Assembly: GCA_944326325.1 (NCBI GenBank)
Contig: CALVDQ010000012.1
Coordinates: 1 to 64,000, forward strand
Length of the DNA: 64,000 nucleotides
Direction: 5' to 3'
Source of the DNA: an uncultured Bacteroidales bacterium
GTDB lineage: Bacteria > Bacteroidota > Bacteroidia > Bacteroidales > UBA932
Under the pieces are notes generated by a model. It did no database searches. It worked only from the letters and a program-made list of their open reading frames with translations, and was not told where the DNA came from. Shown piece after piece: positions 9,727 to 64,000 of the stretch; within the stretch, counting starts at the first letter, position 1; each line of letters starts with the position of its first letter. Both the position numbers and the translations under genes were made by a program.

Positions 9727-9766
9727 AATCAAAGGGATACCCTCCCAGGGCATCCCTTTGATTTTC
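9727..9766 (+). terminator. Rho-independent terminator
   Basis: AATCAAAGGGAT (9727-9738) pairs with ATCCCTTTGATT (9752-9763), with an inner CCCT/AGGG stem, then TTTTC. It separates the BACON lipoprotein from the nuclease genes, so those may have another promoter or rely on read-through. Confidence 0.85.
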
Positions 9767-9811
9767 TCGATTAGTTTCTTTTGAAAATTCTGATTGTCAT
9801 AAGGGAGAGGT

Positions 9812-47511: not shown

Positions 47512-48096
47512 ATGAGTACGACTAAAACAGCCTATCCGGGTATGCCATCTCCGCTTTTTCCGGACACCAACCCGAAGCCTGTAATGGGATTTCTTTACTC
47601 TGTCTCCCGGACGTCTCTCGGTGAATACTGGCCGTTGTATGTGGGTCCGAACAGCATCGGACGTTCTCCGGAATGCGGCATCCGGCTCGAGGAAGCCTCT
47701 GTCTCTGAAAACCATGCCGTCCTTGTCATCCGCAAGATGCAGAACAACGGTGAGAACGCCGGAATATTCGTCTATCTCCAGGACACGGGTTCGATGTACG
47801 GTACAATGCTCAACGGGGTGACCCTGGACTTCAACCCGAAGGAGTGCAGGAGCGGGGATATCATCAGCGTCGGAGAGAACTATGAGCTTTATTTTCTTCT
47901 TGTCGACCCTGATTCTGTGGGGCTGAAACAGAAACCTGGCTTCAGGTCCACCGCTCCCGATGCCGCTGAGGCAGGACAACCTCCGCTTACAGGACTTTTT
48001 ACCCAGTCTCCAAAAGGGACCATGCCCGGGACAGTTTCGTCTTCCCCTTTCGAGGACGGTTCCAAGAAGACGGTCTTCATTTCCCCCAAGAGATAG
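47512..48096 (+). CDS. FHA domain protein
   Basis: A 194-residue cytoplasmic protein with no signal peptide or membrane helix. The ATG at 47512 is preferred; an in-frame ATG at 47449 would start inside the T-rich tract after the RNA. Residues about 40-130 form an FHA domain: IGRSPECGIRL, ASVSENHAVLVI and YGTMLNG. The canonical SRxH loop is SENH here, so phosphothreonine binding may be altered. The last 60 residues are Pro/Ser-rich, likely flexible. It heads a run of thirteen same-strand genes that include a kinase and a PP2C phosphatase, whose targets or scaffold it may be. Confidence 0.85.
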   Translation: MSTTKTAYPGMPSPLFPDTNPKPVMGFLYSVSRTSLGEYWPLYVGPNSIGRSPECGIRLEEASVSENHAVLVIRKMQNNGENAGIFVYLQDTGSMYGTMLNGVTLDFNPKECRSGDIISVGENYELYFLLVDPDSVGLKQKPGFRSTAPDAAEAGQPPLTGLFTQSPKGTMPGTVSSSPFEDGSKKTVFISPKR

Positions 48097-48135
48097 CATT
48101 TCCCATCTTTTGTCAACCTCTGAAACCTGAAGACA

Positions 48136-49146
48136 GTGTTACAGTCAATAAAATCACGGTTAAAGTGTACCGGATGCATCGAGTCGCTTGTCGGGGGAAG
48201 GTCCGAGAACCAGGATTCCGCAGCTTCGGCCGATACTCCGCTGGGTACTCTTGTGGTCGTCTGCGACGGGATGGGAGGCATGAAAGGAGGAAAGAAGGCT
48301 TCGTCCATGGCAGTGGATTCTGTAATCGCTTCTGTCAGTGCCGCCCCGGAAGACGGGAATCCTGCGGAGGTGCTCTATGATGCGATAGCCAAGGCGAACT
48401 CCAGTATAGCCGAAGAGGGTCGCAAGGAGGAGTTCAAGGGGATGGGAACCACTGTCGTAGCCCTTCTGCTCACGGAAAGGAGTGCTGTCGTGGCACAGCT
48501 CGGCGACAGCCGGGTGTACCAGATCAGGAAAGGGAAGAAGATTTTCCGGACGACGGACCATTCCATGGTTTTCGATATGGTCAAGGCGAATGTCATTACG
48601 GAAGAACAGGCCCGGCTCTCGAGCTGCTCGAACATAATCCTGAAAGCTCTCGGAATATCGGAAACGGCCGAACCTTCCATCGTGGAACTGCCGTACCGGA
48701 GACATGACAGATTTGTCCTGTGTACGGACGGATTCTGGGCGGCGACGGATGAAGATACATTCCTGAAGAAACTTTCCGTAAAAGAAAGTCCGGAGCAGAT
48801 GCTTTCCGCCCTTGCGGAGGAAATAGACAGCATCGGCAGGGATGGCGGCGGGAATCATGATAATCTGACTGCAGCCATTGTGGACGTGGATGCGGATTCT
48901 GTACTCAAGGACAGGCGCAGGACAGGATTCCCGATATTGAAATTGTGTGTGTATGTTCTTCTGGCCGCAAGCCTCGGTCTGAACCTGTATTCATTGGTGC
49001 TCATGTCGGAGCGGAAAGATCTCCGCGAGGAACTTGCCGGATTGAGGGACGATCTTGTAACCGCCCAGGAATATCTTACTGCACAGAAGGTGGAGAAGAT
49101 ACTGGACATGGTGACAGGCGGTGACAGGACTGCGTCAGAGGATTAA
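48136..49146 (+). CDS. Membrane-anchored PP2C-type Ser/Thr phosphatase
   Basis: A 336-residue metal-dependent phosphatase. The start codon appears to be GTG at 48136, as no ATG precedes the domain. Motifs in order are GGRSENQDS (first metal Asp), VVVCDGMGGMKGG, AQLGDSRVYQIRKG, VLCTDGFWAA and GGNHDNLTAAIV, so all metal-binding acids are present. After the domain (about 1-250) comes one membrane helix (about 266-290), then a 46-residue charged coiled coil that would lie in the periplasm. It is the probable opponent of the kinase encoded at 52418. Confidence 0.92.
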   Translation: MLQSIKSRLKCTGCIESLVGGRSENQDSAASADTPLGTLVVVCDGMGGMKGGKKASSMAVDSVIASVSAAPEDGNPAEVLYDAIAKANSSIAEEGRKEEFKGMGTTVVALLLTERSAVVAQLGDSRVYQIRKGKKIFRTTDHSMVFDMVKANVITEEQARLSSCSNIILKALGISETAEPSIVELPYRRHDRFVLCTDGFWAATDEDTFLKKLSVKESPEQMLSALAEEIDSIGRDGGGNHDNLTAAIVDVDADSVLKDRRRTGFPILKLCVYVLLAASLGLNLYSLVLMSERKDLREELAGLRDDLVTAQEYLTAQKVEKILDMVTGGDRTASED

Positions 49147-49199
49147 GATATTTTTGAACAGTAATTTCGGCGTTATTGCGTCAATAAGGAAAATCGGAT

Positions 49200-49907
49200 A
49201 TGAAAAAGACCGTGTATACGATAGGACGGGATCCTTCCTGTGACATCTGCCTGTACGATACGGGCAATGCAGTCAGCCGCCACCATGCGGTATTGAAAAT
49301 CAGGAAGAACGGGAGCTATGTCATCGTAGACTCCAGCCTTAACGGCACTTATGTGAACGGAGTCAGGATCACTCCGGAGAAGGAGGTCCCTGTTTCTCGC
49401 AGGGATACCGTCCGTTTTGCGGATTCTGCAGAACTGGACTGGTCCCTTATCCCTGAAAATCCGGTGAAGAAGCGTATCGCTGTCATAGCGGGATCTGTCT
49501 TTCTGCTGATAGCGGCGGCGGTGACCGTGATATGTGTGTGTCCGCGCGGCGGCGGTTCTCCGGCAGGAGGAGGCCCTGCGGGATCTTCCGTCTTCTTCCC
49601 TGATGACTCCCTGTCCCGGAGAAACGCTTCCTCCGGAAAGGACAAGCCTGTGTTCCGACGGACCTTGCCTAAGAAGCAGGATGATAAGGAGATGCAGACT
49701 GAAACGGCACCTGCCCGGACGCATGGGCAGGAAGATTCCCTCCAGGTGCGGGATACAGCCGGAGGGGATGTCGCCCTTCAGGATACTGCGGCCGTTTCCG
49801 GCAATGTCCGGGCGGATTCCCTGCATCTTGCGGAGCCTGCATCCGGTGGCTCTTCTGAAACCGAGGTGGCAGACACCTCTACTATTAATGTCAATGCAAT
49901 CTATTAA
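49200..49907 (+). CDS. FHA domain protein with membrane helix and periplasmic tail
   Basis: A 235-residue protein. An FHA domain occupies residues 1-85 with all hallmark residues: YTIGRDPSCDI, AVSRHHAVLKI and SSLNGTYVNG. One membrane helix (about 97-118, IAVIAGSVFLLIAAAVTVIC) follows. The remaining 115 residues are Ser/Pro/Asp-rich without predicted fold, probably in the periplasm. It could link phospho-signalling at the inner face to envelope partners. It lies 53 bases after the PP2C gene and 11 bases before the FHA-protease gene. Confidence 0.85.
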   Translation: MKKTVYTIGRDPSCDICLYDTGNAVSRHHAVLKIRKNGSYVIVDSSLNGTYVNGVRITPEKEVPVSRRDTVRFADSAELDWSLIPENPVKKRIAVIAGSVFLLIAAAVTVICVCPRGGGSPAGGGPAGSSVFFPDDSLSRRNASSGKDKPVFRRTLPKKQDDKEMQTETAPARTHGQEDSLQVRDTAGGDVALQDTAAVSGNVRADSLHLAEPASGGSSETEVADTSTINVNAIY

Positions 49908-49918
49908 AATTCATCACT

Positions 49919-51445
49919 ATGAGACTAACAGTAATCGGACGTGACCCCAAACAGGCGGAGATAGTCATATCCAACGAGTATGTGAGCAACTACCACGCGG
50001 AGCTGATCCAGCTCGACAACGGGGACATGTTCATCATCGACAAAAGCACGAACGGGACTTTCCTTGACGGTTCGAGGCTTGCCCCTGGGAAAGAGACCCC
50101 CGTCAGAAGAGGTGCGGATGTTACTTTCACTGCGTTGGGTATCCCGCTTGACTGGTCGGCCGTCCCTTATCTGAAGACCCCGGAAGGCGTGAGGCAGACC
50201 ATGGGCATAGGTTCACACTACATGAACAGGATTGTCGTCAACGGTACCGGCGTCAGCCGCTTCCATGCCACGGTCCGTGAAATGTCCGACGGGAAATGGT
50301 ATATCTGTGACCACAGCATGAACGGAACCACCCTGAACGGCAGAGCCATACCGAAGAACAAATACGTAAGGCTGAAAGCCGGCGATGAGATTTCCTGTGC
50401 CGGGATCCCTGTAGAGAACCCGGTAAGGAAGGGAGGCGGAGGCTGGAAGTATGCCGTGGCTGCGGCAGCTGTAGCCGTCGCGGCGGTACTGGTAGTCTTT
50501 GGTGTCCGGTCAATCCGTCGCCCCCTGTCTGACGAGCAGCTTATCGCGATGTACGACAATTCCGTGGTGCTGATGGTCTGCGAGTATCATTTCGAGGTGG
50601 ATTGCGGCACCCTGCCGATAGACGGTCTTCCTGATCCGGATTCCTGGAACCCTCGCAAGGAGGTCTTTACAGAGCCTCTGTATGACAAGTTCATCGTGGA
50701 GGACGACATGGTGATGGAGTTTGACGGGAATAATTCGATTATGGGGACCGGGACCGGCTTTTTCGTAGGGGAGTCCGGCGTCATAGCCACGAACCGCCAT
50801 GTGGCGAGACCTTGGGAGATGGACAAGGTTGATTACGGCACTTCCGTGGTTACTCTGGAAAAGGCTGCGGAGGATTATTTCAGGAACAAGCTTACGACTC
50901 TGTATGAAATGGGGTGTACTGAAGCCCTTCCGTACATTTCCCAGGTCAGGGTACGCGGGGTGCTTGACAATATGATCATTGTCCCGAACGGCAAATACTT
51001 CAATTCCCACAGTGCCATAACCTGCAGTGAGATAGCCTGCAGTTCAGAAAGCGAAGACCTTGCCTTGTTCAAGATACTGTCCGACAGTATGCCGCTGAAT
51101 GTGACACCTGTCCCTCTTTCCAAAGTCAGGAAGAACGACCCTAAGAAGGGGGCGCATATCCTGACAATCGGTTTCCCGATGGGTATAAACCTTCTTGATG
51201 ATCTGGAAAAGACGGAAATACAGGCTCATGCCGCATCCGGGTCCATATCGAGGAACGATAACCGGTTCCTGTTCGGATTCGATGCCGTGACAAGGCCTGG
51301 AGCCAGCGGTTCCCCTATTTTCGACAAGTACGGGAATCTTATGGGTGTCCTCAATTCGGGATATTCGTCAACCCAGGGATTCAACTTCGGTGTCCGTTCA
51401 GTTTATCTCGAATCTTTGCTCAAGGGAGCGGAAGTCACAAAATGA
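49919..51445 (+). CDS. Tandem FHA - membrane helix - trypsin-like protease
   Basis: A 508-residue protein. FHA domain 1 (about 1-75) has VIGRDPKQAEI, YVSNYHAELI and KSTNGTFLDG. FHA domain 2 (about 95-165) has GVSRFHATV and HSMNGTTLNG but a changed entry motif, MGIGSHYMN. One membrane helix lies at about 180-200. The periplasmic part is a trypsin-fold protease: GTGFFVGESGVIATNRHVA gives the His, EDLALFKI the Asp, and PGASGSPIFD the Ser. All three catalytic residues are present. Cytoplasmic phosphopeptide reading could thus steer a periplasmic protease. Its stop overlaps the next start by four bases (ATGA). Confidence 0.9.
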   Translation: MRLTVIGRDPKQAEIVISNEYVSNYHAELIQLDNGDMFIIDKSTNGTFLDGSRLAPGKETPVRRGADVTFTALGIPLDWSAVPYLKTPEGVRQTMGIGSHYMNRIVVNGTGVSRFHATVREMSDGKWYICDHSMNGTTLNGRAIPKNKYVRLKAGDEISCAGIPVENPVRKGGGGWKYAVAAAAVAVAAVLVVFGVRSIRRPLSDEQLIAMYDNSVVLMVCEYHFEVDCGTLPIDGLPDPDSWNPRKEVFTEPLYDKFIVEDDMVMEFDGNNSIMGTGTGFFVGESGVIATNRHVARPWEMDKVDYGTSVVTLEKAAEDYFRNKLTTLYEMGCTEALPYISQVRVRGVLDNMIIVPNGKYFNSHSAITCSEIACSSESEDLALFKILSDSMPLNVTPVPLSKVRKNDPKKGAHILTIGFPMGINLLDDLEKTEIQAHAASGSISRNDNRFLFGFDAVTRPGASGSPIFDKYGNLMGVLNSGYSSTQGFNFGVRSVYLESLLKGAEVTK

Positions 51446-52416
51446 CCGTTGCTATGAAAGGATTGACAGTCTTGGCTTCCGCCATGATGCTGGCAGCCTG
51501 TCCTCTGCCGGGGCAGACTGTCGACAGGGTGTACCTGGAAGACGGAAGGACCTTCGATGGCTTCATATCGGAGCAGATACCCGGCAGGGAGATAACCGTA
51601 TCCACTCCGTCCGGTGACAGGACACTGGAGTGGAAAAGTGTCGTGAAGACGGAAAAACTCGGCCTGGCGAACGTGAAGCATGGCATCCGAGAAGTAGTGA
51701 CTTTACGTTCCGGAGAAAGTATCTCCGGCCGTATCGCGATACAGAATATCGGCAAGGACATGGTCATGATATTGCCTGACGGTACGCGCAGGACCATAGC
51801 CCAGGCGGATGTGGATGTCATAAGTTCGGAAGCCGTACCCGGGGACGGATCTGTCTGGGAACTGGCTCCTCTTCTTGACAGGCTTGTCCTGACGGACGGC
51901 AGGACTGTGGAAGGTTTTATCGTATCAAGAAAGATGGGGGAGTCGGTATCGCTTCTGCAGAAAAACAGGTTCAGGGCGCAGACCTATCCTTTGTCTGAGA
52001 TAGAGCGGTACCAGAAGGTGCGGAATGGCGAGGCCGGACAGAAAGAGGAGGACGGTCCGGGTGTTACGTATGACGGGAAGGCACTCAGGATTGCAGAAGC
52101 GGATGCGCATTATGACGAAGTAAGGGTGGACGGGAACGGTTCTCCTCTTTCCGTGGCAGGGAAAATCTGTACGGTTGAGGTATCCGGTCCGGAGCCTGAG
52201 GTGTCGCTGTATAAGGTAAAGTATGATTACGGGGACGGCGAGAATACGGACCCGGCTTATATCTTCAGCTCTTCGGATGAATCACTGTCCTGGGCTGTCA
52301 GGAAGAGCCGGTCAGGAAAAAATACTGTGATTGAATTGAATGTCAAAAAATACGGTATCTACTATCTGGCGTTGGACGGACTGGACAAGGGTGTCCTTAT
52401 AGAATTTTACAGGTAA
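51442..52416 (+). CDS. Envelope protein with three beta repeats
   Basis: A 324-residue protein of unknown function. The N-terminus is a signal with LAAC (Cys20), so it is a likely lipoprotein. Residues about 28-190 contain three related modules of 50-60 residues, each opening with a phrase like VYLEDGRTFDGFI, VTLRSGESISGRI or LVLTDGRTVEGFI, followed by a short beta strand pair ending before a conserved Ile/Val. The last 110 residues form a separate beta-rich domain (YKVKYDYGDGENTDPAYIF). Translational overlap with the FHA protease (ATGA) and a one-base gap to the kinase indicate tight coupling with both. Confidence 0.75.
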   Translation: MTVAMKGLTVLASAMMLAACPLPGQTVDRVYLEDGRTFDGFISEQIPGREITVSTPSGDRTLEWKSVVKTEKLGLANVKHGIREVVTLRSGESISGRIAIQNIGKDMVMILPDGTRRTIAQADVDVISSEAVPGDGSVWELAPLLDRLVLTDGRTVEGFIVSRKMGESVSLLQKNRFRAQTYPLSEIERYQKVRNGEAGQKEEDGPGVTYDGKALRIAEADAHYDEVRVDGNGSPLSVAGKICTVEVSGPEPEVSLYKVKYDYGDGENTDPAYIFSSSDESLSWAVRKSRSGKNTVIELNVKKYGIYYLALDGLDKGVLIEFYR

Positions 52417-52417
52417 G

Positions 52418-53473
52418 ATGATTGTTCGAATACAGGGTGTATCTGAGTTGCAGAACCAGATCTATTATGATTATGACACTGATTCAATACCTCTCGGACA
52501 GGGAGGTATGGGGATAGTGTATCCGGGACGCTGTTTCCGGACGGATAATGAGACAGAATATATTCCTGTGGCCATAAAGCTGGTTACCAATACAGCCCAG
52601 GATATGATAGAAAGGGCGATGCGGGAAGCGTCGATCCAGATTGACCATCCCAACCTTCTGCGGATGTACGGATTTATCCCGAACATGGAACCGGACCCTT
52701 TTACCCATGAAATGAAGCCCAGGTATTATGTAGTAATGGAGAACCTGGACGGAGTCAGCCTGGAAAGTATGTTAGAAGGTGTGTTTTGTACAAAGACAGG
52801 GTCCGACATAGGGTATGCGAGGGAGCTGTATGATATGGGATGCAATGACCGCAGGAATTTTACCGTCGAGATTATGTCAGCCATACTCAAGGGTGTGGCG
52901 TGCCTGCACCGCTCCGGCTATATCCACAGGGATCTGGACCCGAGCAACATAATGATTACAAGGGACAGGGAGATAAAGATCATCGATTACGGCGTGTGCA
53001 AGCCGGTGGCTTCCATCAACGGTGCTGATGCGAAACTGACCATGTCGGGCTCCATAATCGGCAAGGTCGACTATGCCGCCCCGGAACTTCTTGCCGGAGA
53101 TGTCCAGCACCATAATTTCACTACGGATGTTTATGCTCTCGGGATACTGATGTACAGGCTCTTTGTCGGGGCGCTCCCGTTCGAAGGGGACAATTCTTCC
53201 ATAATGAAGGCTCATTTGAGCGGGGAGGTGCCGGCAGGGAACATATCGGATCCCGGAATCCGCAGGATAGTGGAGAAAGCTGTCAGGAAACAGCAGGATG
53301 AGAGATACCAGTCGGTGGACGTGATGCTTGAAGACCTGTCTGCCGTGTCTGGCGGTCTTGCCGTGCAGGACAGTGACGGAAAAGGCAATGGCGCTCACGG
53401 GACGTGGGTGCCGGTATTGGCGGCAACGGTAACGGGACTTGCCGCCGGTATAGCTACAGCATTTATGATATGA
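52418..53473 (+). CDS. Hanks-type Ser/Thr protein kinase, C-terminal membrane anchor
   Basis: A 351-residue eukaryote-like kinase. Motifs: glycine loop PLGQGGMGIVYPG, VAIKLV with the ATP lysine, EAS in helix C, catalytic loop YIHRDLDPSNIMI, DYG in place of DFG (KIIDYGVCK), YAAPELL and DVYALGILMYRLF. The catalytic-loop lysine normal for Ser/Thr kinases (HRDLKPxN) is Asp here. One membrane helix ends the protein (about 328-350), so the kinase faces the cytoplasm with no sensor domain outside. Its stop overlaps the next start by four bases (ATGA). With the PP2C and FHA genes it forms a complete write-erase-read set. Confidence 0.92.
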   Translation: MIVRIQGVSELQNQIYYDYDTDSIPLGQGGMGIVYPGRCFRTDNETEYIPVAIKLVTNTAQDMIERAMREASIQIDHPNLLRMYGFIPNMEPDPFTHEMKPRYYVVMENLDGVSLESMLEGVFCTKTGSDIGYARELYDMGCNDRRNFTVEIMSAILKGVACLHRSGYIHRDLDPSNIMITRDREIKIIDYGVCKPVASINGADAKLTMSGSIIGKVDYAAPELLAGDVQHHNFTTDVYALGILMYRLFVGALPFEGDNSSIMKAHLSGEVPAGNISDPGIRRIVEKAVRKQQDERYQSVDVMLEDLSAVSGGLAVQDSDGKGNGAHGTWVPVLAATVTGLAAGIATAFMI

Positions 53474-55086
53474 AGACAGGTATGGGCATAAGACCGGTAT
53501 TGATTGCCGCGGCTACGGTCCTTTGCGGACACGGTCTTGCCGCGCAGGACATTCCTGAGCCCGCGAGTCTCGAGCGCAGGATGAACCTGATGGTGATCGA
53601 TGCGGTGACGGAGCTGGAACAGGCTTCCGATGTGGTTGACGGGACGGCTGCAAGGACATTCCTGAGGCTGTTCGAGAATGAGGACACCCCGGTTTTCTGC
53701 GACCTGTACTCTTTGGATGATTTCCTCAGTACGGTACCGGTCCGCGAGTATGCAGGGAGCTTCCTCGGCAAGGATGATACGGGAAAGTTTACAGCCCTGA
53801 CATACGAATTCAAGGATATAAGGAAACTCGGATGGAGATTCGGGGACGGTCGCTGGTACTGTACGGTGGAGCTGAAGAAGTCACTGAACTATTTCGACGG
53901 CAACCTGGTCTACTACCCGCTGTCTGTCCAGAATCCTGGCGGTGACGATTTTGTGCTTCGTGTGGAGCTTGTTTTCGACGAGACCTGCTCCGGCTGCCGG
54001 ATATCGGGGATAAGCTGCAGCAACGCCAGGGATTTCCGGTCTGCAGGCAGCGGCTATCTTGTGATCCAGCGGAACGAAGATCCTGATGACGCCAGGAGGG
54101 ACGACGGTATAATGGTGAAAGGCAGCAAAGTGGTCTACAATGACTTCGGACAGGGATATGCCCCGAAAGGCGATATCTCCTTCTGGGATGAGGACATGAA
54201 GGTGACGGCTGTCAGCATGGCAAGTTCCGACCTTTATGACTATGTCCGTTTCAAGTACAAGCCGCGTCATCTGAGACTGAGGCTGCGCAATGAATTCGCA
54301 CCGGTTTCCGCTTACTCCTTTTCCGGAACTGCAGACCTTGCCTCCCGCTCTTCTTCGGCTTATTCCGTAGGGATAGATGTCGGATATTCCGTCACTGCTT
54401 CAAGAGGGTTCCGGATCGGGTTTTATACGGGGATCGGAGTGACTTTCTCCAGGATTTCGCTGCAGACGGCGCCGTTCAGCTATTCATACAGGATTACTGA
54501 CCGGGATACAGGGATGGACTACTCGAGAAACTACGATATCGGATATGCCTCCCAGGGGGCTGAATTCACGGACCTGGCTGTCCCTCTGTATCTGAGCCCT
54601 GAATTCAGGCTGCACAAGGCTGTCTCTCTCGTGCTGGACCTCGGGGTGAAGTTCTATGCCAATACCGGAGGCTCGACGGATCCTTTCCATGTCAGGGGCA
54701 GTGTCCAGGGCATATATGAGGATGGAACGGGGATCCCTGACGGGAAATACGGTACCGGAAACATAGATGCCGACTTCAGGGAGATGGTCTCGGCAGTGAC
54801 TTTCCAAAGGAGTCCTTTCGATGTGTGCCTTGCCGGGAATGTGGGCCTGGACGTGAACCTCTACAACCGGATGCTCTATCTCCAGGTCAAGGCAGGCTAT
54901 GAATATGGTCTGACCTGGTCGTACAGGTCACCGGAGTATGAGTTCTGTTCTGAAACAGGGGGGATCTACCCGCTGGTCTATTCTGTGGACTACGGCAGGG
55001 ATGTGGCATTCCGTCCGCTGGCTGACTGCGTGTCGTTCAGGAGGCAGTCATGGTGGTTCGGTATAGGACTGATGTTAAAACTGTAG
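53470..55086 (+). CDS. Outer-membrane beta-barrel protein with N-terminal domain
   Basis: A 538-residue protein with a signal peptide ending GLAAQ (start at 53470; the ATG at 53404 lies inside the kinase gene). Residues about 25-270 are a soluble beta-rich domain of unknown family (GYLVIQRNEDPD, VVYNDFGQGYAPKGD). From about 290 to the end, alternating aromatic/small strands (GIDVGYSVTA, RIGFYTGIGVTFSRI, SLVLDLGVKFYANTGG) end WWFGIGLMLKL, as in eight- to ten-stranded barrels of the OmpA/PorT type. Coupled to the kinase by a four-base overlap. It gives the cluster an outer-membrane component. Confidence 0.75.
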   Translation: MKTGMGIRPVLIAAATVLCGHGLAAQDIPEPASLERRMNLMVIDAVTELEQASDVVDGTAARTFLRLFENEDTPVFCDLYSLDDFLSTVPVREYAGSFLGKDDTGKFTALTYEFKDIRKLGWRFGDGRWYCTVELKKSLNYFDGNLVYYPLSVQNPGGDDFVLRVELVFDETCSGCRISGISCSNARDFRSAGSGYLVIQRNEDPDDARRDDGIMVKGSKVVYNDFGQGYAPKGDISFWDEDMKVTAVSMASSDLYDYVRFKYKPRHLRLRLRNEFAPVSAYSFSGTADLASRSSSAYSVGIDVGYSVTASRGFRIGFYTGIGVTFSRISLQTAPFSYSYRITDRDTGMDYSRNYDIGYASQGAEFTDLAVPLYLSPEFRLHKAVSLVLDLGVKFYANTGGSTDPFHVRGSVQGIYEDGTGIPDGKYGTGNIDADFREMVSAVTFQRSPFDVCLAGNVGLDVNLYNRMLYLQVKAGYEYGLTWSYRSPEYEFCSETGGIYPLVYSVDYGRDVAFRPLADCVSFRRQSWWFGIGLMLKL

Positions 55087-55089
55087 ATT

Positions 55090-55887
55090 ATGAAAACAAA
55101 GACTTTATTGATAACGGCAGGTGTCTTTGCCGTAGCTTTTGCAGCAGGTTTCGGGGCCACGCTGGTGATCAGGGGATATGCCGGCAGTCCGGCGGGTGCG
55201 GGGCCGGAGCCGGAAGTACGGGAAACCGCCATGCCTGTACCTCCGGAGACTGTCCCGGAGGTGCGGACGGATATCGTTGCCGGAAATGATGCTATACAGG
55301 AGGGGCATCTGCCGCAGGATTCTCCGTCGGCAGCGGTCACGGCTCCTGAAAAGACAGCTGATACGGCCCTTTCGGTTGAAAGTGTAGACGGGCCGGTATT
55401 TTCCGTAAGGGACCGTCATTATTCGGTGACAGTGCATGCTGCCGCGGGACCGGACAGGACCGGAGACCTTGAATATGTCCTGCAGGATGATTCCGGAGAG
55501 GTCCTGAGCTCGGGCACGTCCCCTGTCATATCTGTCCCTCAAAGTGAAAGCGGGGTCTATTACGTATATGTCAGGGATGCCGGGACAGGAGAGGAAGGCG
55601 ACCCGTATGAAATAAAGGGATGCCGCGTGCGTAAGATGGAGAAGTCCCGTCTCGAGCAGATATGCAACAGCGGGGATTATACCACAATGCGCAATGCCGA
55701 GGCGTATGAGCTTTCTCCGTCGCTTACCCTTGCCTTTGAAGGGATTCCGGAGGACAGTAAAGCCGCCAGCATAGATGATATATGTACCAGGATCTCGCTC
55801 GGAATATGGTCTTCCGTAGCTGTGCTGGAGATACGGTATGATGAGCTCAACCTGGTGGAGTATGTGAAATTTCAGGTAAAGGAATGA
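55090..55887 (+). CDS. Membrane-anchored envelope protein of unknown function
   Basis: A 265-residue protein. One hydrophobic helix (about 5-27, LLITAGVFAVAFAAGFGATL) anchors it. A Pro/Glu-rich linker (about 30-100) follows, then a beta-sandwich-like part (FSVRDRHYSVTVHAAAG, LEYVLQDDSGEVLSSG, GVYYVYVRDAGTGEEG) and a small C-terminal domain. I do not recognise the family. It starts three bases after the barrel gene and overlaps the next gene by four (ATGA), so it belongs to the same transcript. Confidence 0.7.
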   Translation: MKTKTLLITAGVFAVAFAAGFGATLVIRGYAGSPAGAGPEPEVRETAMPVPPETVPEVRTDIVAGNDAIQEGHLPQDSPSAAVTAPEKTADTALSVESVDGPVFSVRDRHYSVTVHAAAGPDRTGDLEYVLQDDSGEVLSSGTSPVISVPQSESGVYYVYVRDAGTGEEGDPYEIKGCRVRKMEKSRLEQICNSGDYTTMRNAEAYELSPSLTLAFEGIPEDSKAASIDDICTRISLGIWSSVAVLEIRYDELNLVEYVKFQVKE

Positions 55888-56468
55888 TGGGAAGGTATAT
55901 TGTACTGGCTGTCTTCATGCTCATGTCCCTGGAGCTCGGCGCCCAGGACGGTGTCCTGTCGGTCTATTATATCTCACATTCCCAGGCGACAAACGAGAAG
56001 GCGCTCCTGAGTGCGCTGAACCTTGCGAAGCCGATGGATGAGTCCGAGTCCGCGGTCTTCTACCTTGCCAACTCAGACAGACCTTATATAGCATACGTGA
56101 ACCTTCCGTTCCAGGGGGACTCGTTCGATGACATAATAGCCGAGATAAACACCAAGTCCTCCCATGAAGTTTACGCCGATGTCGACTGCAGAAAGCTCTG
56201 TGAGGTCTTCGACAATATCGATACCGTCCAGGACAGGTTCCAGACGATTGTCTTCAACTATTACATCGATTCGATGTTCTGGGATTTCTACCGTCAGTCG
56301 GTGATAGCGAAGATGTATTATGTCCTGGATATGGCCGGGTCAGACCGTATGGTCATGAACATATACTTTACGGAGGGCGACGAGCCTGAAATTGACGAAA
56401 AACAGCCGTTCGGACCTGGAAACCTATGCAGGGGCTATGAATTGCTTCCATTGATACTTTATGAATAG
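55884..56468 (+). CDS. Small secreted protein of unknown function
   Basis: A 194-residue protein with a signal peptide ending LELGAQ. The mature part (about 22-194) mixes helices and strands with no known motif: ISHSQATNEKALLSALNLAK near the start and RMVMNIYFTEGDEPEIDE near the end. It is acidic and has two cysteines close together near the middle and one near the end. It starts inside the last codons of the previous gene (ATGA). The periplasm is the likely site. Confidence 0.65.
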   Translation: MMGRYIVLAVFMLMSLELGAQDGVLSVYYISHSQATNEKALLSALNLAKPMDESESAVFYLANSDRPYIAYVNLPFQGDSFDDIIAEINTKSSHEVYADVDCRKLCEVFDNIDTVQDRFQTIVFNYYIDSMFWDFYRQSVIAKMYYVLDMAGSDRMVMNIYFTEGDEPEIDEKQPFGPGNLCRGYELLPLILYE

Positions 56469-56478
56469 AACAGGAGAT

Positions 56479-58887
56479 ATGATGAAGATCAGATTATTGT
56501 TATTGTGTTTCATCCTGTCTGTCGCGGCTGGGCATGCCCAGCCCGCACTGCCTTCGTTCTGCGAGGCTTTCCGTCCCGCGGAATTGTCAGGCTCGCACAG
56601 ATCCCTGACTGTAAAGCAGTCCGACATAGACAGGTTTCTCAAATCTTCCGGATACGGGCAGAACAAGAGGAATACGCAGGAATACTGGCAGGTGTTGAGC
56701 GACAGGGACGTAAATCCCGTATATGAATCCGAGACCGGGTCCAAGGTCGTAGGGCATCTGAAGTGGAACGAATCCGTGACTATCGCCAGGATTTCAGGAG
56801 AAAGGGCTCTGGTAATCTCGGGTACATTCAACAAGGAGGACTATCCGGAAGTCCCTATCAACGCAAAATGTCTCGGATGGGTTCCAATGGACAAGCTCCT
56901 GCTTTGGGAAACCTGCCCTACGGACGATGCCGGGATATACTACAAGGCCTTGATCTCCCTCAATCTTGATGCGCAGAACATAAAGACAGACAATACTGTA
57001 GGAAAAATGTACGGAAATCCTGACGATCTCTCCAGGAGTATTCCGCTGACGACCGACAAGAAGTTCTATTATATAATGAAGAGGGAAAAGAACATGGTCC
57101 TTCTTGCCACCCAGTATACGGTCAGTTCAGGGTACAGCAAGGAAGTCCTTTTCGGATGGGTGTCTGAAGGCTCCTATGTGCCGTGGAACCAGAGGTCCTG
57201 CCTCGAACCTACATGGGACTATGAGGATGTGACGTATTTCATAAGCAACTCCATCTCGGCACCTGTCTGCCACTCCGCCAAAGACGGGAAAGAAGTCACG
57301 AGGTGGGAGTACAGTACGCAGAAGGACTGGAAGGACTACAGAATGAGCGGGAATGAACTCAGGTTCCCCCTCCTTGACGGGAATATCAGGGACAAGGACG
57401 GGAACATAACCGAATACAACATCTCCTCTTTCGGCGTGTCCACGGGTGAGACAGTCACAGGCGGGGCTATAGGCACCGGTGAAAGCATCGGGGTGACCGA
57501 AGAGGCGCTCAGGCAGATGCAGAAGATAAACATTTGTCTCGTCATAGACGGTACAGAGTCCATGGAACCGTATTATCCCGCAGTGAAGGAGGCTCTGAAG
57601 GAAGGCTGCAAGCTGTTCCAGGGCAAGGCCGTGGAAGTGGCTGCTGTAATATACAGGGACAAGGAACATACTCTCGGAGGGAAAAGCTACGAGGTCGAGG
57701 AGTTCCGCTTTACCAGGCCGGAAAATACAAGGCTTCTCTCTTTTCTCGACACCGGCGGTGAATACGGGTTCCGGACATCTTCCGACAGGACTGCCGAGGA
57801 GTCTGTCTTTTACGGAATGAGCCGGGGCCTCGATATGTTCAAAGGCCTGGAGAAGCAGAGCAACATAATGCTGGTGGTCGGAGACTGCGGAAACAACGAT
57901 GCATCCAAAGACAGCCGCTATACGGACGAAGACATCACCGCAAAGCTGGTAAGGTACAATGTCCAGCTCATGGTCTTCCAGGTAGCCAAGAAGTCGGTTC
58001 CAAAGGCTTACGGAACTTTTACCAACCAGCTTTCCAAGATATTGAAGGACAACCTTGAAGCCAAGTACAGACTTCTCGACAAACAAGGCGTGAAATCTCC
58101 GGCAAAAGTGACGCTGAACGTTGTTGACGGGGGATATGTCCTCGAGAACGACAAGAACAGCAATATCTATGTAGGCTCCATACGTTTTCCTAAGCCGGAA
58201 CATGAGATGCTCGCTTCCGAACTCACCTCGGAGATGATAGGTGCCATAGACAACCTGAGCAGTTCTATCCAGAACCAGATAGACATCATAACGGGAAGTG
58301 CCGCCGGTAACCGGTGGAGGGCAAACCGGAATGTATCCGGAGGCATGACTTACGACGAGGCGTTCATCAAGCAGGTCCTTGGGGAGGACGGTGACCCGGG
58401 CAAGGGCGTGGTGATGTCCTTTAAGGGATTCACACCTAAAATTGACCCGAAAAGCCACAGGGAATATTACAAGCCTGTCCTGTTCATTTCATCCGACGAG
58501 CTGAAGACGCTTGTGATGAAGCTCCAGCCTGTAGCCAATGAGGCGAACCGTCCGTCGCAGGACAGAATGCCTTATATAAATGCCCTGAAGGCCCTGATCA
58601 GGAGTTTCGTCCCTGACATCACTGCCGCCGAGATGGAGAATATGTCCCAGGATGAGATAATGTCGATCGCTGCCGGGCTCAACGAGGCTTCTGCTTCTCT
58701 AAAAGGCTATTCGATAGCGGCGCTCGGTGACCCGCACAAGGTCTCCCATGCGGAATATGTCTCTATCCTCAAGCAGTTCGCCTCCAAATTCAGGCGCCTG
58801 AGGAATATCCAGGCAAGTGCATACCCGTACACTATGGAGTTCAACGGCGCCAAGTACTATTGGATTCCTATTGAAGAACTTCCTTAA
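56479..58887 (+). CDS. Periplasmic vWA-domain protein, TssR-like
   Basis: An 802-residue secreted protein. I chose the ATG at 56479, after an AGGAG at 56472-56476; an ATG at 56461 overlaps the previous gene. The signal ends AGHAQ. Residues about 60-290 resemble two SH3-like barrels (VVGHLKWNESVTIARISG, GWVPMDKLLLW). A von Willebrand A domain starts at INICLVIDGTESM (metal motif D357-G-T-E-S), runs through VAAVIYRDKEH and includes IMLVVGDCGNN. A helical C-terminal part ends YYWIPIEELP. From memory the layout recalls TssR of the Bacteroidota type VI secretion system, but no other secretion gene is present. Probably a periplasmic scaffold. Confidence 0.75.
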   Translation: MMKIRLLLLCFILSVAAGHAQPALPSFCEAFRPAELSGSHRSLTVKQSDIDRFLKSSGYGQNKRNTQEYWQVLSDRDVNPVYESETGSKVVGHLKWNESVTIARISGERALVISGTFNKEDYPEVPINAKCLGWVPMDKLLLWETCPTDDAGIYYKALISLNLDAQNIKTDNTVGKMYGNPDDLSRSIPLTTDKKFYYIMKREKNMVLLATQYTVSSGYSKEVLFGWVSEGSYVPWNQRSCLEPTWDYEDVTYFISNSISAPVCHSAKDGKEVTRWEYSTQKDWKDYRMSGNELRFPLLDGNIRDKDGNITEYNISSFGVSTGETVTGGAIGTGESIGVTEEALRQMQKINICLVIDGTESMEPYYPAVKEALKEGCKLFQGKAVEVAAVIYRDKEHTLGGKSYEVEEFRFTRPENTRLLSFLDTGGEYGFRTSSDRTAEESVFYGMSRGLDMFKGLEKQSNIMLVVGDCGNNDASKDSRYTDEDITAKLVRYNVQLMVFQVAKKSVPKAYGTFTNQLSKILKDNLEAKYRLLDKQGVKSPAKVTLNVVDGGYVLENDKNSNIYVGSIRFPKPEHEMLASELTSEMIGAIDNLSSSIQNQIDIITGSAAGNRWRANRNVSGGMTYDEAFIKQVLGEDGDPGKGVVMSFKGFTPKIDPKSHREYYKPVLFISSDELKTLVMKLQPVANEANRPSQDRMPYINALKALIRSFVPDITAAEMENMSQDEIMSIAAGLNEASASLKGYSIAALGDPHKVSHAEYVSILKQFASKFRRLRNIQASAYPYTMEFNGAKYYWIPIEELP

Positions 58888-58899
58888 CCGGACAACAAG

Positions 58900-59772
58900 A
58901 TGGATACATTGTTTGAAATATCGAATCTAAGGTGTTCGTACGACAAGGAGAACCACGGCAGAATCGTTCTGGATATCAGACATCTGGTCATCCCGAAAGG
59001 CCGGAAGGTATTTATCGTCGGCGAATCCGGGATAGGCAAGAGCACCATACTCGAGGTCCTGGGTCTGATGAACAATACGATAGTCCCGGATCCTGCTACG
59101 CGTTTCCTCTTTTTCGGAGACGGACATCCTGTGGACATACTGGAGCTCTGGAGACGGAATGACGACCGCGAACTGTCCGGTTTCCGCAGAAAACACTTCA
59201 ATTTCATCTTCCAGAGCACCAACCTTATGAGGAATTTCACGGCATACGAGAATATCTCCATAACAAGGATGCTGCAGGGATATGACAAGGAGTCGTCGTT
59301 TGAAAAAGCAGAAAAGATCCTCGGAGACCTCGGGCTCGGACATATCGGCAGGGACCGTATGGCTCAGGAACTTTCCGGAGGACAGCAGCAGAGGCTTGCA
59401 TTCGCGAGAGCCGTTATCCCGGACTTCACGGTACTGTTCGGTGACGAGCCGACAGGCAACCTTGACAGCGACAATGCCGTCCGTGCGATGAAACTGCTTT
59501 CGGACAAGCTTTCCGGGCTGGAGGGCAGTTCCGCCATTATAGTCTCTCACGATATGCATCTGGCGACTGCATTCGCCGATACGGTGATAAAGATACGCAA
59601 GGAAATGTGTGCCGGGGGCGGGGAGGGGGAAGACGCCAGTTTCTATGGTCTGATTGACCAGGACTGTGTCTATAACGTCTCTCCGGACCGCGGAAACTGG
59701 AGCAACGGGAGACAGAGCTATACTGCCTCTGATTTTGAAACTTTTCTAAAACGCAGATCAGATGAAAGATAA
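58900..59772 (+). CDS. ABC transporter ATPase, LolD/MacB type
   Basis: A 290-residue ATPase that would power the FtsX-type permease encoded next. Walker A is GESGIGKST (residues 41-49), the signature is LSGGQQQR, Walker B is FTVLFGDEP, and the H-loop is IIVSHDMH. The ENISITRMLQGYD segment fits the MacB/LolD branch. The C-terminal 55 residues after the ATPase core are unusual (FYGLIDQDCVYNVSPDRG, SDFETFLKRRSD) and may interact with the permease or signalling partners. It overlaps the permease start by 11 bases. Confidence 0.92.
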   Translation: MDTLFEISNLRCSYDKENHGRIVLDIRHLVIPKGRKVFIVGESGIGKSTILEVLGLMNNTIVPDPATRFLFFGDGHPVDILELWRRNDDRELSGFRRKHFNFIFQSTNLMRNFTAYENISITRMLQGYDKESSFEKAEKILGDLGLGHIGRDRMAQELSGGQQQRLAFARAVIPDFTVLFGDEPTGNLDSDNAVRAMKLLSDKLSGLEGSSAIIVSHDMHLATAFADTVIKIRKEMCAGGGEGEDASFYGLIDQDCVYNVSPDRGNWSNGRQSYTASDFETFLKRRSDER

Positions 59773-61330
59773 AATGATGTCAGGAGACTATTTCCGCCTG
59801 TTCGTACGCAGGGAAGGCAAGGTCGTCCTCGGAAGGCGGTATTCCAACCTTTGGCTGCTGGCAGGTGTCCTCGCCCTTACGTTCATGGCGATATCTTTCA
59901 GCAATGCGAGCCTCGACTACCTGTCTTTCAAGATGGATGACCCGTTCATAAACTGGCTGGATATCGAGAATACTTCGGACAGGTCGGATTACTATGGGCT
60001 GATACAGGCTCTGGAGGATTCTACATTCAAGGAAGAATACCATATAATCAAGTATCAGGAGGACTATAAGTTTTCATACAACTTCTTTTCGGAAGACAAG
60101 GAACTCAGGTATTTCACAGGGAGGTTCTTCCAGGAAATCAACACTCCTCTTGTGGATGCGATACTGAGTGATGACAATGTTGTCGGAAACCAGAAGGTTG
60201 ATTCCGTGAGTGCGATAGATCCGCAGTCGATAGGGGTGATAATGACGGAAGACATGCTTTCATCGCTTGGCTACGACAAGGCTCCGGCATATATCGGCTA
60301 TGCCCGGTATTCACCCGGGGCAGATACCCTCGGCTTCAGCCTGTACACAGATGAAAGCTATGCTTCCGTGCCGGTCCCTGTACTCGGCGTAGTCCGCAAG
60401 CTGCCGGGGAATGTGGATTTCATCTCATCGGCTTTTTTTCTGGAACAGGATTTCAACGACTATTCCAATCCGTTCTATATGACGGACCCGGAGTATGCCT
60501 CCACCCTGCACTACTATGTCCCGGATGATGTGGATCTGGATGACTTCGAGGCATCTGTGACAGATGCAGCCGGGAAATACGGCATAGAACTGCAGCCGGA
60601 CAGGATGTCCTTCTACCTGCCGCAGATCGAGCCGTTCAGGAAAGGCGCTTTCATATCTTTCTTTCCGCCGGACAGCATAGACTTCCGTGCCCTCCAGAGT
60701 CTTGACCGGGAGATATTGTCGTCCGCCCCGGACAGTGACATAACCAGAGTCTATGATTTCCATTTTTCGGACAGCTATATCAGCCAGATATCCTTTGTCT
60801 CGGTACATTTCAACGATCTTGTCAGGGTAAGGGATTTCGAGGAATACGTATTCCAGAATTTCTTCATCAGGATAGATATGTCCCAAGTGAATGCAAAGGA
60901 GAATTTCAACACAGTGAGCATAATGGCCAACATCCTTTCATGGGTTATCGTCATATTTTCGATCCTGTGCATTATTCTTTTCATCGTGAACCTGCTGCAG
61001 TCGTACTTCCAGAAGGTCAGGAAAAACATAGGGACATTCAAGGCTTTCGGTATAAGCAATGCCGAACTGACGAGGGTCTACCTGCTGATCATGTCGGGAA
61101 CTGTGGTTTCGGCAGTCGTGATATCCTTCCTTGCCGTCTGTATCCTGCAGCTTGTCCTCCTGCTGGCAGGAGCGCAGTGGGCAGAAGGCTTCGGCTATCT
61201 GTCGGTATGGAATGTCAAGACTTTGTATGCAGTGCTGATAATCCTGACAAGCTCGGTGGTCACGGTTTACTGTGTGATGCGCCGGCTTCTGTCATCGACT
61301 CCTGGAGACTTGATTTATGATAGGCAATAA
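59762..61330 (+). CDS. FtsX/MacB-type permease with large periplasmic domain
   Basis: A 522-residue inner-membrane protein. One helix lies near the N-terminus (about 29-49), then a periplasmic domain of about 330 residues, then three helices (about 393-420, 440-470 and 485-505) in the FtsX core arrangement, with YFQKVRKNIGTFKAFGISNAEL between them. Starts at 59774 or 59777 are possible. Families of this type do not carry solutes across the bilayer but move lipoproteins or peptides from the periplasmic side, or activate periplasmic enzymes. No MacA-like partner is seen. The next gene, a big lipoprotein, starts six bases later. Confidence 0.85.
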   Translation: MKDKMMSGDYFRLFVRREGKVVLGRRYSNLWLLAGVLALTFMAISFSNASLDYLSFKMDDPFINWLDIENTSDRSDYYGLIQALEDSTFKEEYHIIKYQEDYKFSYNFFSEDKELRYFTGRFFQEINTPLVDAILSDDNVVGNQKVDSVSAIDPQSIGVIMTEDMLSSLGYDKAPAYIGYARYSPGADTLGFSLYTDESYASVPVPVLGVVRKLPGNVDFISSAFFLEQDFNDYSNPFYMTDPEYASTLHYYVPDDVDLDDFEASVTDAAGKYGIELQPDRMSFYLPQIEPFRKGAFISFFPPDSIDFRALQSLDREILSSAPDSDITRVYDFHFSDSYISQISFVSVHFNDLVRVRDFEEYVFQNFFIRIDMSQVNAKENFNTVSIMANILSWVIVIFSILCIILFIVNLLQSYFQKVRKNIGTFKAFGISNAELTRVYLLIMSGTVVSAVVISFLAVCILQLVLLLAGAQWAEGFGYLSVWNVKTLYAVLIILTSSVVTVYCVMRRLLSSTPGDLIYDRQ

Positions 61331-61336
61331 TCTGTT

Positions 61337-64000
61337 ATGAAACATTCGGGAAAAATATCCATATCCCTGGCTGTGCTCGCCGTCCTTGCCTCCTGCAGTA
61401 AGAATGGCGGTGATGAGCTCGTCTCGATAGACGGCGGGGTGCTGTCGGACAAAGAGGTGGAGCTGTCCCCGGTCGGAGGTTCCTTCAGGCTGGCGTTCAC
61501 GTCCGGGACGGATTGGAATGTCACAGGCCCGTTCTGGCTGACCGTGAGTCCTGAAAGCGGCAGGGCAGGGACTGCGACGGTCACATTGTCTGCCGGGCTC
61601 AACAGCAGCCGCAGCACCAGGAGTACCGAGCTGTATTTCTCGGAAGAAAGTGTAGTCAATGTGGTACAGCCGTATCCGTATCTCAGGATAGACAGCGGGA
61701 CAGGTGACTTTGCCATAGACCATGAATTCAATTATAATGAAAGCCTTAGGTCCGGTATCGGCACGCTTGTACTTCCATTGGAGTCCAATGTGAAATGGCA
61801 GGTGCAGGCAGACGCCGGTCTTTCGGGTTTCTCGGTTTCGGCCCTTGAAGGGGAGAATGATCTGGATCTGGTGATAGCTCCGCTGACAAACAATTACGGG
61901 AAAGAGCCACGCTCTACAGGATTCGATATCGTGCCGGTGATGGAAGACGGGAGCGGTGGTATGACGGAGATTCCGCAGGAAGCGGCGGACCGTTATTCTG
62001 TGTCACTTGTCCAGGACAATTTCCTCTTCCTTGTGGATGATTCGGCAGACGAATTACGTGTTACGATATCTGACTGCAACGAGACATACTCTGTCATCCG
62101 TCTTGATGAATACGGTGAGGTTGACGCCTCTGAACCGGAGAGGACAGGCAATGTCCCTGCTGTACTCCAGATAGAGGCTGAGTCTCCATGGGAGCTTGCC
62201 GGATATCCGGAGTGGCTTTCCGTGGATCCTGCTTCCGGGCAGAATATCTCTGTTACACTGGATGCCGACGGCGTCTCTCCTGAAAGGGAGGACCGGCAGG
62301 GAACGGTGGTCCTCAGCGCAGAGGACGGCAATGTACAGAGGGAGATACAGGTCGTGCAGGAGGGGTACCTCTTTGACGTGGAGTCGGATGACATTCAGGA
62401 CGGAAGTCTTGTGATACCGTGGGGCGACCTTTCGGCAAGGACTGTCACTTTGAATACGAACGGACCTTGGGAGATCCGGGACATTCCGGAGTGGCTCGAA
62501 GTGACACCTTCATCATGTGATGAACCTGCATCCCTGAGCGGGGTTTCCTCGCATGAGATAACGCTCAAGGTCAGGGAAGAGAATCTGGATTTCGAGGACA
62601 GAACGGCGGATATCGTCTTTTCACGCCTTGTGAAGCCGGAGGGCTACGGGGGATCCGATCCTGTGGATGTCGTCGTCCGCATTGTCCACAGCCGGTTCGT
62701 GTTCGATGTCACCCCGTCCCCTGTGCTCGGCAGGATACCTACGATGAACACCCTGCCATATCCTGTAGAAATAGAGTGTTCCGGTCCATGGGAAATCGAA
62801 TCCGTGCCGGACTGGCTTAATATACCGGTTTCCTCGGGGACAGGGAACGAGACAATATGGGTAAATGCAAAATCCGCCAATCCGGATATGGACAACGACA
62901 GGACTGCGGTCCTCCGGTTCATAAGCCTGAAACATCAGGAGTCCGGCATTGAAGCTTACCGCAGTGTAGAAATAGTGCAGAGAAAATATACGTTCGAACT
63001 GACTCCGAGTCCGGAACTCCAGCATATCCCTGCATACCGGACCGTCTTCCCGGGCTATGTCCTGCATCTGCAGTGTTCGGCAGAATGGGAGATCGTCTCT
63101 TATCCTGAATGGCTGGTTCCGGACGTGACATCGGGGGACGGTATGGAGGATGTGGACATTGCGTTTACTCCGGAAACCAATACCCGGAAAGTTTCCCGTT
63201 CGGACGAGATAAATCTGAGGGACAGCTATACCGGAGATGTGCGGAACGTGGCCGTGGAACAGGACGGTTTTGTCTTTGACGAATCTTCTGTGTCCATAGA
63301 CGGGATTCCCGTGATGAATTCCACCTCGTATCAGGTGTCTTTCGGACTGACTGCGGAAGCTCCGTGGGAACTTGTATCCTACGATGAGTGGACGGGACCG
63401 TCCGCATTGTCAGGTGAAGGCATCTCGTCCGGAATCACTGTACTTTATTTCCAGCCTGAACCTAATCCGCTTCTGACCGGCAGGACTGGAAGTGCGGTTA
63501 TAAGAAGCCTTGTCAACGATGAAGAGAAACGGGTGGAGTTCAGCCAGGAACGGTATGTATTCGATGACAGTCCGGAAGAGTACCGGTTTACGGAGCTTTC
63601 TTCGTCGCAGGTGTCTCTGGAGGTGGAATGTTCGGGTCCATGGACGGTGGATGCTCCGTCGTGGGTTGTCTTTTCTCCTTCGCAGGGCCAGTCATCGCAG
63701 ACCGCCGGCATCTCTGTCCGGAACAATCTGACCTCAGCGGAACGCACTGCTTCCTGTGTCCTTACAAGTACCTTGAACGGTCTGGAGCGGAACATCACGA
63801 TACGCCAGGACGCTTTCGAATTCGACCGGTCCCCTCTGTCATATTCTTTCACGGCACTGGAGGAGAGGAAGGAAAGTTTCGGTATCCTGTGTTCTGGCGG
63901 TTGGACGGCGCGCAATGTCCCTGAATGGGTAACGTTGTCGCGTACGCGAGGGGACGGCAGCGAAGAAGGGGCCGTCGACGATGTGGTCCTTTCCGTGTCA
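61337..64000 (+). CDS. Large tandem-BACON lipoprotein, cut by window end
   Basis: The frame is open from the ATG at 61337 to the last base, giving at least 888 residues. The N-terminus is a lipoprotein signal ending VLASC (Cys20). The rest is a string of about nine BACON or BACON-like beta-sandwich modules of 85-115 residues. Most carry the signature Trp pair, e.g. TDWNVTGPFWLTVSPESG, SPWELAGYPEWLSVDP, GPWEIRDIPEWLEVTP and GPWEIESVPDWLNIPV, and end in a VxQxx phrase before the next module's F/Y-x-F-D. BACON domains are thought to bind glycans or mucin, or to act as spacers. As the last visible gene of the kinase-FHA cluster it would be a long surface fibre or binding protein. Confidence 0.88.
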   Translation, partial: MKHSGKISISLAVLAVLASCSKNGGDELVSIDGGVLSDKEVELSPVGGSFRLAFTSGTDWNVTGPFWLTVSPESGRAGTATVTLSAGLNSSRSTRSTELYFSEESVVNVVQPYPYLRIDSGTGDFAIDHEFNYNESLRSGIGTLVLPLESNVKWQVQADAGLSGFSVSALEGENDLDLVIAPLTNNYGKEPRSTGFDIVPVMEDGSGGMTEIPQEAADRYSVSLVQDNFLFLVDDSADELRVTISDCNETYSVIRLDEYGEVDASEPERTGNVPAVLQIEAESPWELAGYPEWLSVDPASGQNISVTLDADGVSPEREDRQGTVVLSAEDGNVQREIQVVQEGYLFDVESDDIQDGSLVIPWGDLSARTVTLNTNGPWEIRDIPEWLEVTPSSCDEPASLSGVSSHEITLKVREENLDFEDRTADIVFSRLVKPEGYGGSDPVDVVVRIVHSRFVFDVTPSPVLGRIPTMNTLPYPVEIECSGPWEIESVPDWLNIPVSSGTGNETIWVNAKSANPDMDNDRTAVLRFISLKHQESGIEAYRSVEIVQRKYTFELTPSPELQHIPAYRTVFPGYVLHLQCSAEWEIVSYPEWLVPDVTSGDGMEDVDIAFTPETNTRKVSRSDEINLRDSYTGDVRNVAVEQDGFVFDESSVSIDGIPVMNSTSYQVSFGLTAEAPWELVSYDEWTGPSALSGEGISSGITVLYFQPEPNPLLTGRTGSAVIRSLVNDEEKRVEFSQERYVFDDSPEEYRFTELSSSQVSLEVECSGPWTVDAPSWVVFSPSQGQSSQTAGISVRNNLTSAERTASCVLTSTLNGLERNITIRQDAFEFDRSPLSYSFTALEERKESFGILCSGGWTARNVPEWVTLSRTRGDGSEEGAVDDVVLSVS

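Follow-up and report, generated by a model that had tools for sequence, protein, structure and literature searches.

At the end of the window, a 64,000-nucleotide stretch of contig CALVDQ010000012.1 from an uncultured Bacteroidales bacterium (assembly GCA_944326325.1), thirteen closely packed genes at 47512-64000 combine a Ser/Thr kinase, a PP2C phosphatase and FHA-domain proteins with an ATP-binding cassette (ABC) ATPase, an FtsX-like permease and a series of exported proteins, one of which is a homologue of TssR, a protein of the type VI secretion system (T6SS). We lean, cautiously, towards a reading in which the signalling genes form a phospho-switch cassette in control of a trans-envelope machine that works independently of T6SS and consists of the ABC ATPase, the FtsX-like permease, the TssR-like protein, a putative outer-membrane barrel, the small proteins p8 and p9 and a BACON-repeat lipoprotein. 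This reading is built from sequence evidence: the gene content of the locus, the conservation of the set in relatives, the homology of the von Willebrand factor A (vWA) protein to TssR, the absence of T6SS genes from these genomes and the separability of the two halves.

A first-pass annotation of this DNA had noticed a periplasmic vWA protein here; the domain is present, but the family to which the protein belongs had been missed. A profile of the TssR-like group, aligned with hhalign to five T6SS TssR sequences, matched with a probability of 100 and an E value of 6e-43 over 689 columns. The window protein's TssR_VWA domain (PF20782) scored above the cut-off, while the matches to the terminal domains (PF20781 and PF17643) were weaker and fell below their curated cut-offs; the N-terminal, vWA and C-terminal matches nevertheless follow one another as they do in TssR, which places the protein in that family. 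Among 12 family members, the window's included, TssR_VWA was found in all 12, the N-barrel in ten, the middle domain in seven and the C-terminal domain in six. A search of solved-structure sequences with the TssR-like protein gave no match, and its structural model (predicted local distance difference test (pLDDT) 59) retrieved, among the matches listed, vWA domains alone, for example those of Ku and integrin.

The TssR-like proteins differ from those of T6SS at the vWA metal site. The site is complete in the window's protein (D356-x-T-x-S360, D468), and the motif D-x-[TS]-x-S with its later Asp is kept in 17/17 TssR-like proteins of the order and fully kept in 0/17 T6SS TssR proteins. This incompleteness suggests that the T6SS form is the derived one; it is no stronger than suggestive because in three TssR-like sequences from outside the order the site is partly lost too, and for the same reason loss of the metal site does not mark T6SS cleanly. 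In an unrooted TssR tree, T6SS TssR proteins formed one group and window-type TssR-like proteins another (100/100 for each).

TssR is one of five membrane-complex proteins (TssNQOPR) of T6SSiii, the T6SS of Bacteroidota (PMC10781749). As a marker for T6SS we used the TssC family PF17541, which detected TssC in canonical T6SS genomes at E values of 1e-206 to 1e-232; PF05943 (VipB) gave no match but is ill-suited to Bacteroidota. TssC was absent from the window genome and from nine relatives with TssR-linked cassettes, as was TssN (PF17555), which was found in genomes G054, G344, G180 and G451. Most of the relatives are metagenome-assembled genomes, and missing T6SS genes could be an assembly gap in one of them, hardly in all. 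Across the order and phylum samples, strong TssR matches (E 1e-56 to 1e-108) came with TssC in 16/16 genomes, whereas moderate ones (E 1e-7 to 1e-25; 780-945 amino acids (aa)) did so in 0/22, a count that includes the window genome and its nine relatives. We considered whether the window genome formerly held a T6SSiii of which only TssR and the regulators were retained, given that TssR is otherwise known from T6SSiii and that a sister group of the cassette adjoins a T6SS (below). Such leftovers would not stay intact and collinear, however, and the TssR-like proteins form a lineage of their own, keep a metal site that is incomplete in every T6SS TssR examined, are always tied to ABC-FtsX and occur in these 22 genomes without tssC; we regard a T6SS remnant as very improbable.

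The TssR-like gene is followed by the ATPase and then the permease in 10/10 order-sample genomes and in 3/3 from outside the order. The permease has a single N-terminal helix, a large periplasmic domain and three C-terminal helices, and its model (pLDDT 74) found its best PDB matches in LolCDE, MacB and FtsX, so that on modelled fold the pair belongs to the LolCDE/MacB/FtsX (type VII ABC) superfamily. It shares the permease fold and the ATPase class with LolCDE, MacAB and FtsEX, but judged by curated family scores the ATPase is none of these proper: its best NCBIfam match, LolD (E 5.8e-39), reached 133.9 bits where the cut-off is 307.75, and it scored 123 against 264.85 for FtsE and 124.5 against 966 for MacB. 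Its partner, moreover, is a TssR-like vWA protein. The pair is of a class expected to move periplasmic partners, not to pump small molecules directly across the membrane.

The other putative machine components are conserved with it. Orthologues of the barrel occupy the same position at nine loci and are conserved solely in TssR-linked loci; p8 is in the same position in nine relatives, p9 is kept in 9/9 (E 1e-9 to 4e-32), and the BACON protein comes directly after FtsX in the seven collinear relatives. A Cys4 zinc-ribbon-like motif opens p8 in loci L095, L096, L140 and L142 and is missing from the window's p8. We asked whether p8, p9, the barrel or the T2SSC-like exported protein could be TssN, TssO, TssP or TssQ, and profile comparison gave no match; for TssO/P/Q the profiles were set against candidate TssP/O/Q neighbours of TssR, not curated models, and these components diverge fast.

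In the signalling half, Pfam matches to FHA, PP2C and Pkinase and intact active-site motifs (VAIK/HRD/D(Y)G in the kinase, DGMGG/GDSR/TDG/HDN at the PP2C metal site) bear out the writer, eraser and readers first proposed for the locus, and a hydropathy scan agrees with the single-helix anchors proposed for the kinase, the phosphatase and two FHA proteins, finding one helix in each. The cassette's signature protein is an FHA-FHA-helix-trypsin protein (FHA-protease), predicted to be a periplasmic DegS/HtrA-like protease tethered by two cytoplasmic FHA domains across a helix at residues 178-196; its triad His294-Asp380-Ser463 is invariant across 7/7 aligned FHA-trypsins. The four FHA domains of the locus are the only ones in the genome (2.5 Mb, 97% complete). 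An orthologue of FHA1 stands first in most cassettes, and the T2SSC-like exported protein, matched by profile in relatives, is a cassette member in T6SS-linked loci as well; a second kinase, kinB, is present in most relatives and missing from the window locus and L095. A membrane Ser/Thr kinase, a PP2C phosphatase and an FHA protein are thus encoded together, as in a threonine phosphorylation pathway (TPP). Control of a T6SS, a further TPP trait, is not seen here: the window genome has no T6SS, and the cassette has a T6SS as its neighbour at just seven loci, all of them elsewhere.

Searching for the FHA-protease family in 84,980 species genomes, we obtained 55 loci, all but a few labelled Bacteroidales; one cassette contig (L145), labelled Pseudoflavonifractor (Bacillota), groups with Muribaculaceae and probably comes from a mislabelled assembly. 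The window's set (12-15 genes) recurs in nine other Bacteroidales genomes, collinear in seven and rearranged in two (L140, L142), where the block order is reversed and FHA1 and kinA lie upstream of the barrel. With the window's own, at least ten gut-type genomes keep the block together. The set comprises FHA1, kinB, PP2C, FHA2, FHA-protease, T2SSC-like, kinA, barrel, p8, p9, TssR-like, ABC, FtsX. Conservation of gene order was the check that the first-pass annotation had named beforehand, and its outcome supports the interpretation given there, of a locus that is conserved and dedicated to transmembrane phospho-signalling.

The cassette is not confined to this setting. Ten of the loci lie beside TssR-ABC-FtsX and seven beside a T6SS; about 38 have neither as neighbour and usually accompany WG-repeat and barrel proteins, as in genomes that include Bacteroides rodentium and Prevotella communis. 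The FHA-protease tree places six T6SS-linked cassettes as the sister group of eight TssR-linked ones (the window's among them), with L140 and L142 elsewhere, and an approximately unbiased test rejected forcing all ten TssR-linked cassettes together (p 3.8e-8). Because their TssR proteins nonetheless form one group in the TssR tree, the TssR module and the FHA-protease cassette were joined at least twice. In three further families TssR-ABC-FtsX has FHA, PP2C and kinase genes of other lineages beside it, while six order-sample genomes and three from outside the order have TssR-ABC-FtsX with no recognisable kinase, PP2C or FHA gene nearby. Judged by these neighbourhoods, the TssR/ABC half can be separated from the kinase/FHA half, each forming a module, and the cassette is exchangeable; the first-pass annotation overlooked this separability. 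The finding of each half alone would also fit two unrelated operons that came to lie side by side by chance. Ten genomes link them, two gene orders occur and the joining happened independently at least twice, which makes coincidence a very poor explanation; a functional link is best supported by this repeated joining.

The kinase also scores on the generic PADLOC kinase models PD-T4-6 and MAD6, and with PP2C, vWA and protease parts the locus might be taken for an anti-phage or other conflict system. PADLOC, however, has no model for the TssR-like protein or FtsX and matched the locus with nothing beyond generic entries (kinase, ABC, PP2C and protease), almost all parts are exported or membrane-anchored, and homologues were found neither in a phage search with the FHA-protease nor in a plasmid search with the TssR-like protein and FtsX; we give a role in conflict little credence.

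At the seven T6SS-linked loci the cassette adjoins, in those read through, genes for ClpV, TssC, TssD/Hcp, VgrG and a TssK-like protein, and this direct adjacency upholds, in outline, the earlier suggestion of kinase/FHA control over an envelope machine. TssC of these loci scored at about E 1e-130 where complete (canonical, about 1e-225), a recognisable TssN was found in 0/6 of the genomes, and TssR, searched in one well-assembled genome (G294), was not found there. A 312-aa protein of these loci was considered as TssN and ruled out by a profile comparison without match. These clusters are possibly an undescribed T6SSiii subtype with a different membrane anchor. T6SS clusters flanked by FHA/kinase/PP2C cassettes are seen at L098/L085, L097/L186-L187, L099/L189 and L110/L188, and also at L101, L111 and L114.

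We wondered how a switch of this kind might act on the machine. The kinase would phosphorylate threonines on cassette or machine proteins and the PP2C phosphatase would reverse this; FHA domains would recognise these marks and bring FHA2 and the FHA-protease together at the inner membrane, where the FHA-protease could then process a periplasmic part, such cleavage being one output. ATP hydrolysis by ABC-FtsX may drive a movement in the periplasm by which the TssR/barrel/BACON part is loaded or opened. We prefer to see the TssR-ABC-FtsX unit as an output, acting downstream of the switch, because it is found without a nearby kinase in other genomes and because in the sister group the position following the cassette is taken by a T6SS.

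Two points weigh against this arrangement. The barrel, p8 and p9 are putative assignments from hydropathy, signal peptides and position alone; and the Pseudomonas ABC pair TagS/TagT is placed upstream of its kinase, which by analogy argues for a sensor. In P. aeruginosa, TagQ (an outer-membrane lipoprotein), TagR (periplasmic) and TagS/TagT (an ABC transporter) act upstream of PpkA, PppA and Fha1 (PMC6657622, PMC6082577), the window locus has the same classes of parts as the TagQRST system, and TagQRST-PpkA neighbourhoods without T6SS machinery are reported from host-associated Deltaproteobacteria (PMC3608642). By this token, TssR, the barrel, BACON and ABC-FtsX would detect contact or envelope damage and activate the kinase, and the output would lie in the FHA-tethered protease and in targets from other parts of the genome. 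The nine genomes with TssR-ABC-FtsX and no recognisable kinase, PP2C or FHA gene nearby speak against this, as do the T6SS-linked cassettes, which lack TssR-ABC-FtsX just where a contact sensor would be expected; we consider a sensor role unlikely, though far from negligible, and retain the output placement.

The Pseudomonas TPP module (PpkA-PppA-Fha1 with TagQRST) appears, by analogy of parts, to be the closest known system. It combines an ABC transporter (TagS/TagT), a kinase (PpkA), a PP2C phosphatase (PppA) and Fha1 (PMC6657622, PMC6082577), and the likeness, by part class, extends to a membrane kinase, PP2C, FHA, an ABC ATPase with an inner-membrane permease, an envelope protein and a lipoprotein encoded together. 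The window locus differs in belonging to Bacteroidales and to a genome without T6SS, and in adding the FHA-tethered periplasmic protease, the TssR-like protein, the barrel and the BACON lipoprotein. The first-pass statement that no comparable combination was known is therefore too strong, since PpkA, PppA, Fha1, TagS/TagT, TagQ and TagR form such a set in Pseudomonas and a T6SS-free version, Srf-TagQRST-PpkA, is described for Deltaproteobacteria; the latter has TPP-type genes without T6SS machinery and SrfABC in place of TssR/BACON, and the available text of its description does not mention an FHA-protease (PMC3608642). We found no description of the Bacteroidales cassette in open-licence papers. 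The locus is a variant of a TPP-like kind, and its surprising part is a T6SS-free TssR.

TerY-P triads join vWA, PP2C and kinase, the same combination of classes as the window locus. The vWA protein here differs in being exported and of the TssR family, not TerY, though no search aimed at TerY was made.

The likeness to T6SSiii lies in one component of TssNQOPR, TssR, homologous across nearly its full length; unlike T6SSiii, the window genome has no TssN or TssC, TssO/P/Q were not recognised, and the TssR-like protein keeps its metal site and is linked to ABC-FtsX. A 2024 survey of 1253 complete Bacteroidota genomes did not detect membrane-complex homologues outside T6SS loci; it also looked for a system ancestral to the membrane complex of T6SSiii and found none (PMC10781749). 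A TssR family tied to ABC-FtsX without T6SS is a concrete candidate for that question, covering one of the five components at least. Bolder, and in our view plausible but somewhat doubtful, is the proposal that TssR-ABC-FtsX is a phylum-wide T6SS-independent machine from which the TssR of T6SSiii was co-opted, and which in Bacteroidales was repeatedly joined to an exchangeable cassette that also serves T6SS without recognisable TssN. If true, TssR-ABC-FtsX would be the 'putative ancestral system' that the survey sought (PMC10781749). From the locus it is also seen that Bacteroidales possess a TPP-like phospho-switch, an exchangeable unit of control found next to different envelope machines, T6SS included, with one unusual part: a periplasmic protease anchored through two cytoplasmic domains that read phosphothreonine.

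The layout first described, thirteen tightly packed plus-strand genes, was confirmed, with spacings of -11 to +53 bases and four overlaps (three of -4, one of -11). Pfam found FHA (four domains in three proteins), PP2C, Pkinase, Trypsin_2, ABC_tran, FtsX and BACON domains. The contig extends to 65,213, about 1.2 kb past the window end, and adds a fourteenth gene downstream of the BACON gene (64410-64883), a probable lipoprotein of 157 aa. The GC content of the locus is 52.7% against 52.6% in the rest of the window; composition is unshifted and gives no sign of horizontal origin. Promoter and terminator scans of the locus gave a signal near that of shuffled sequence, and an Rfam search of 30000-64000 gave no match.

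Table 1. The thirteen genes of the locus, in order along the window.
Feature	Position	Strand	Description
FHA1	47512..48096	+	Soluble FHA-domain protein, 194 aa; PF00498 E 1.6e-12
PP2C phosphatase	48136..49146	+	336 aa, GTG start, predicted helix 264-282; PF13672 E 1.4e-17
FHA2	49200..49907	+	235 aa; PF00498 E 6.5e-20, predicted helix 95-113
FHA-FHA-helix-trypsin	49919..51445	+	508 aa; PF00498 x2, PF13365 E 5.6e-16
Exported protein/probable lipoprotein, T2SSC-like (weak)	51442..52416	+	324 aa; sub-threshold T2SSC match, lipobox-like motif
Ser/Thr kinase, kinA type	52418..53473	+	351 aa, tail-anchor helix 333-351; PF00069 E 1e-34
Probable outer-membrane barrel	53470..55086	+	538 aa, signal peptide; no Pfam match; alternating C-terminal strands in alignment
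p8	55090..55887	+	265 aa; N-terminal helix, then periplasmic domain
p9	55884..56468	+	Small exported protein, 194 aa
TssR-like	56482..58887	+	801 aa; signal peptide, TssR N-barrel, vWA, TssR C-terminal domain; PF20782 E 3.4e-17
ABC ATPase, LolD/MacB/FtsE class	58900..59772	+	290 aa; PF00005 E 9.9e-21
FtsX-like permease	59762..61330	+	522 aa; PF02687 E 9.1e-7
BACON-repeat lipoprotein	61337..64375 (window ends 64000)	+	1012 aa, complete on contig; PF13004 E 9.5e-36

Several loci carry further genes around these components. Tandem TssR-like paralogues, some without a vWA domain, lie upstream of ABC-FtsX at L047 (13421-18678), L051 (11149-17480) and L045 (10020-13510). In other families, TssR-ABC-FtsX comes after a repeating group of large exported proteins that carry PKD domains, barrels and C-terminal tails for type IX secretion (L059 3398-17400, L056/L055, L057, L063), one of the proteins being about 2300 aa long. 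Most collinear relatives have an additional FHA protein directly after the BACON gene, missing in the window (L192 3072-4522, with two in L192; L193 4352-5383; L194 4718-5833; L196 4403-5455). The rearranged loci encode a 1575-aa exported protein between kinA and the barrel (L199 reverse complement 5596-10326; L200 6791-11515), which may possibly stand in for the BACON protein there.

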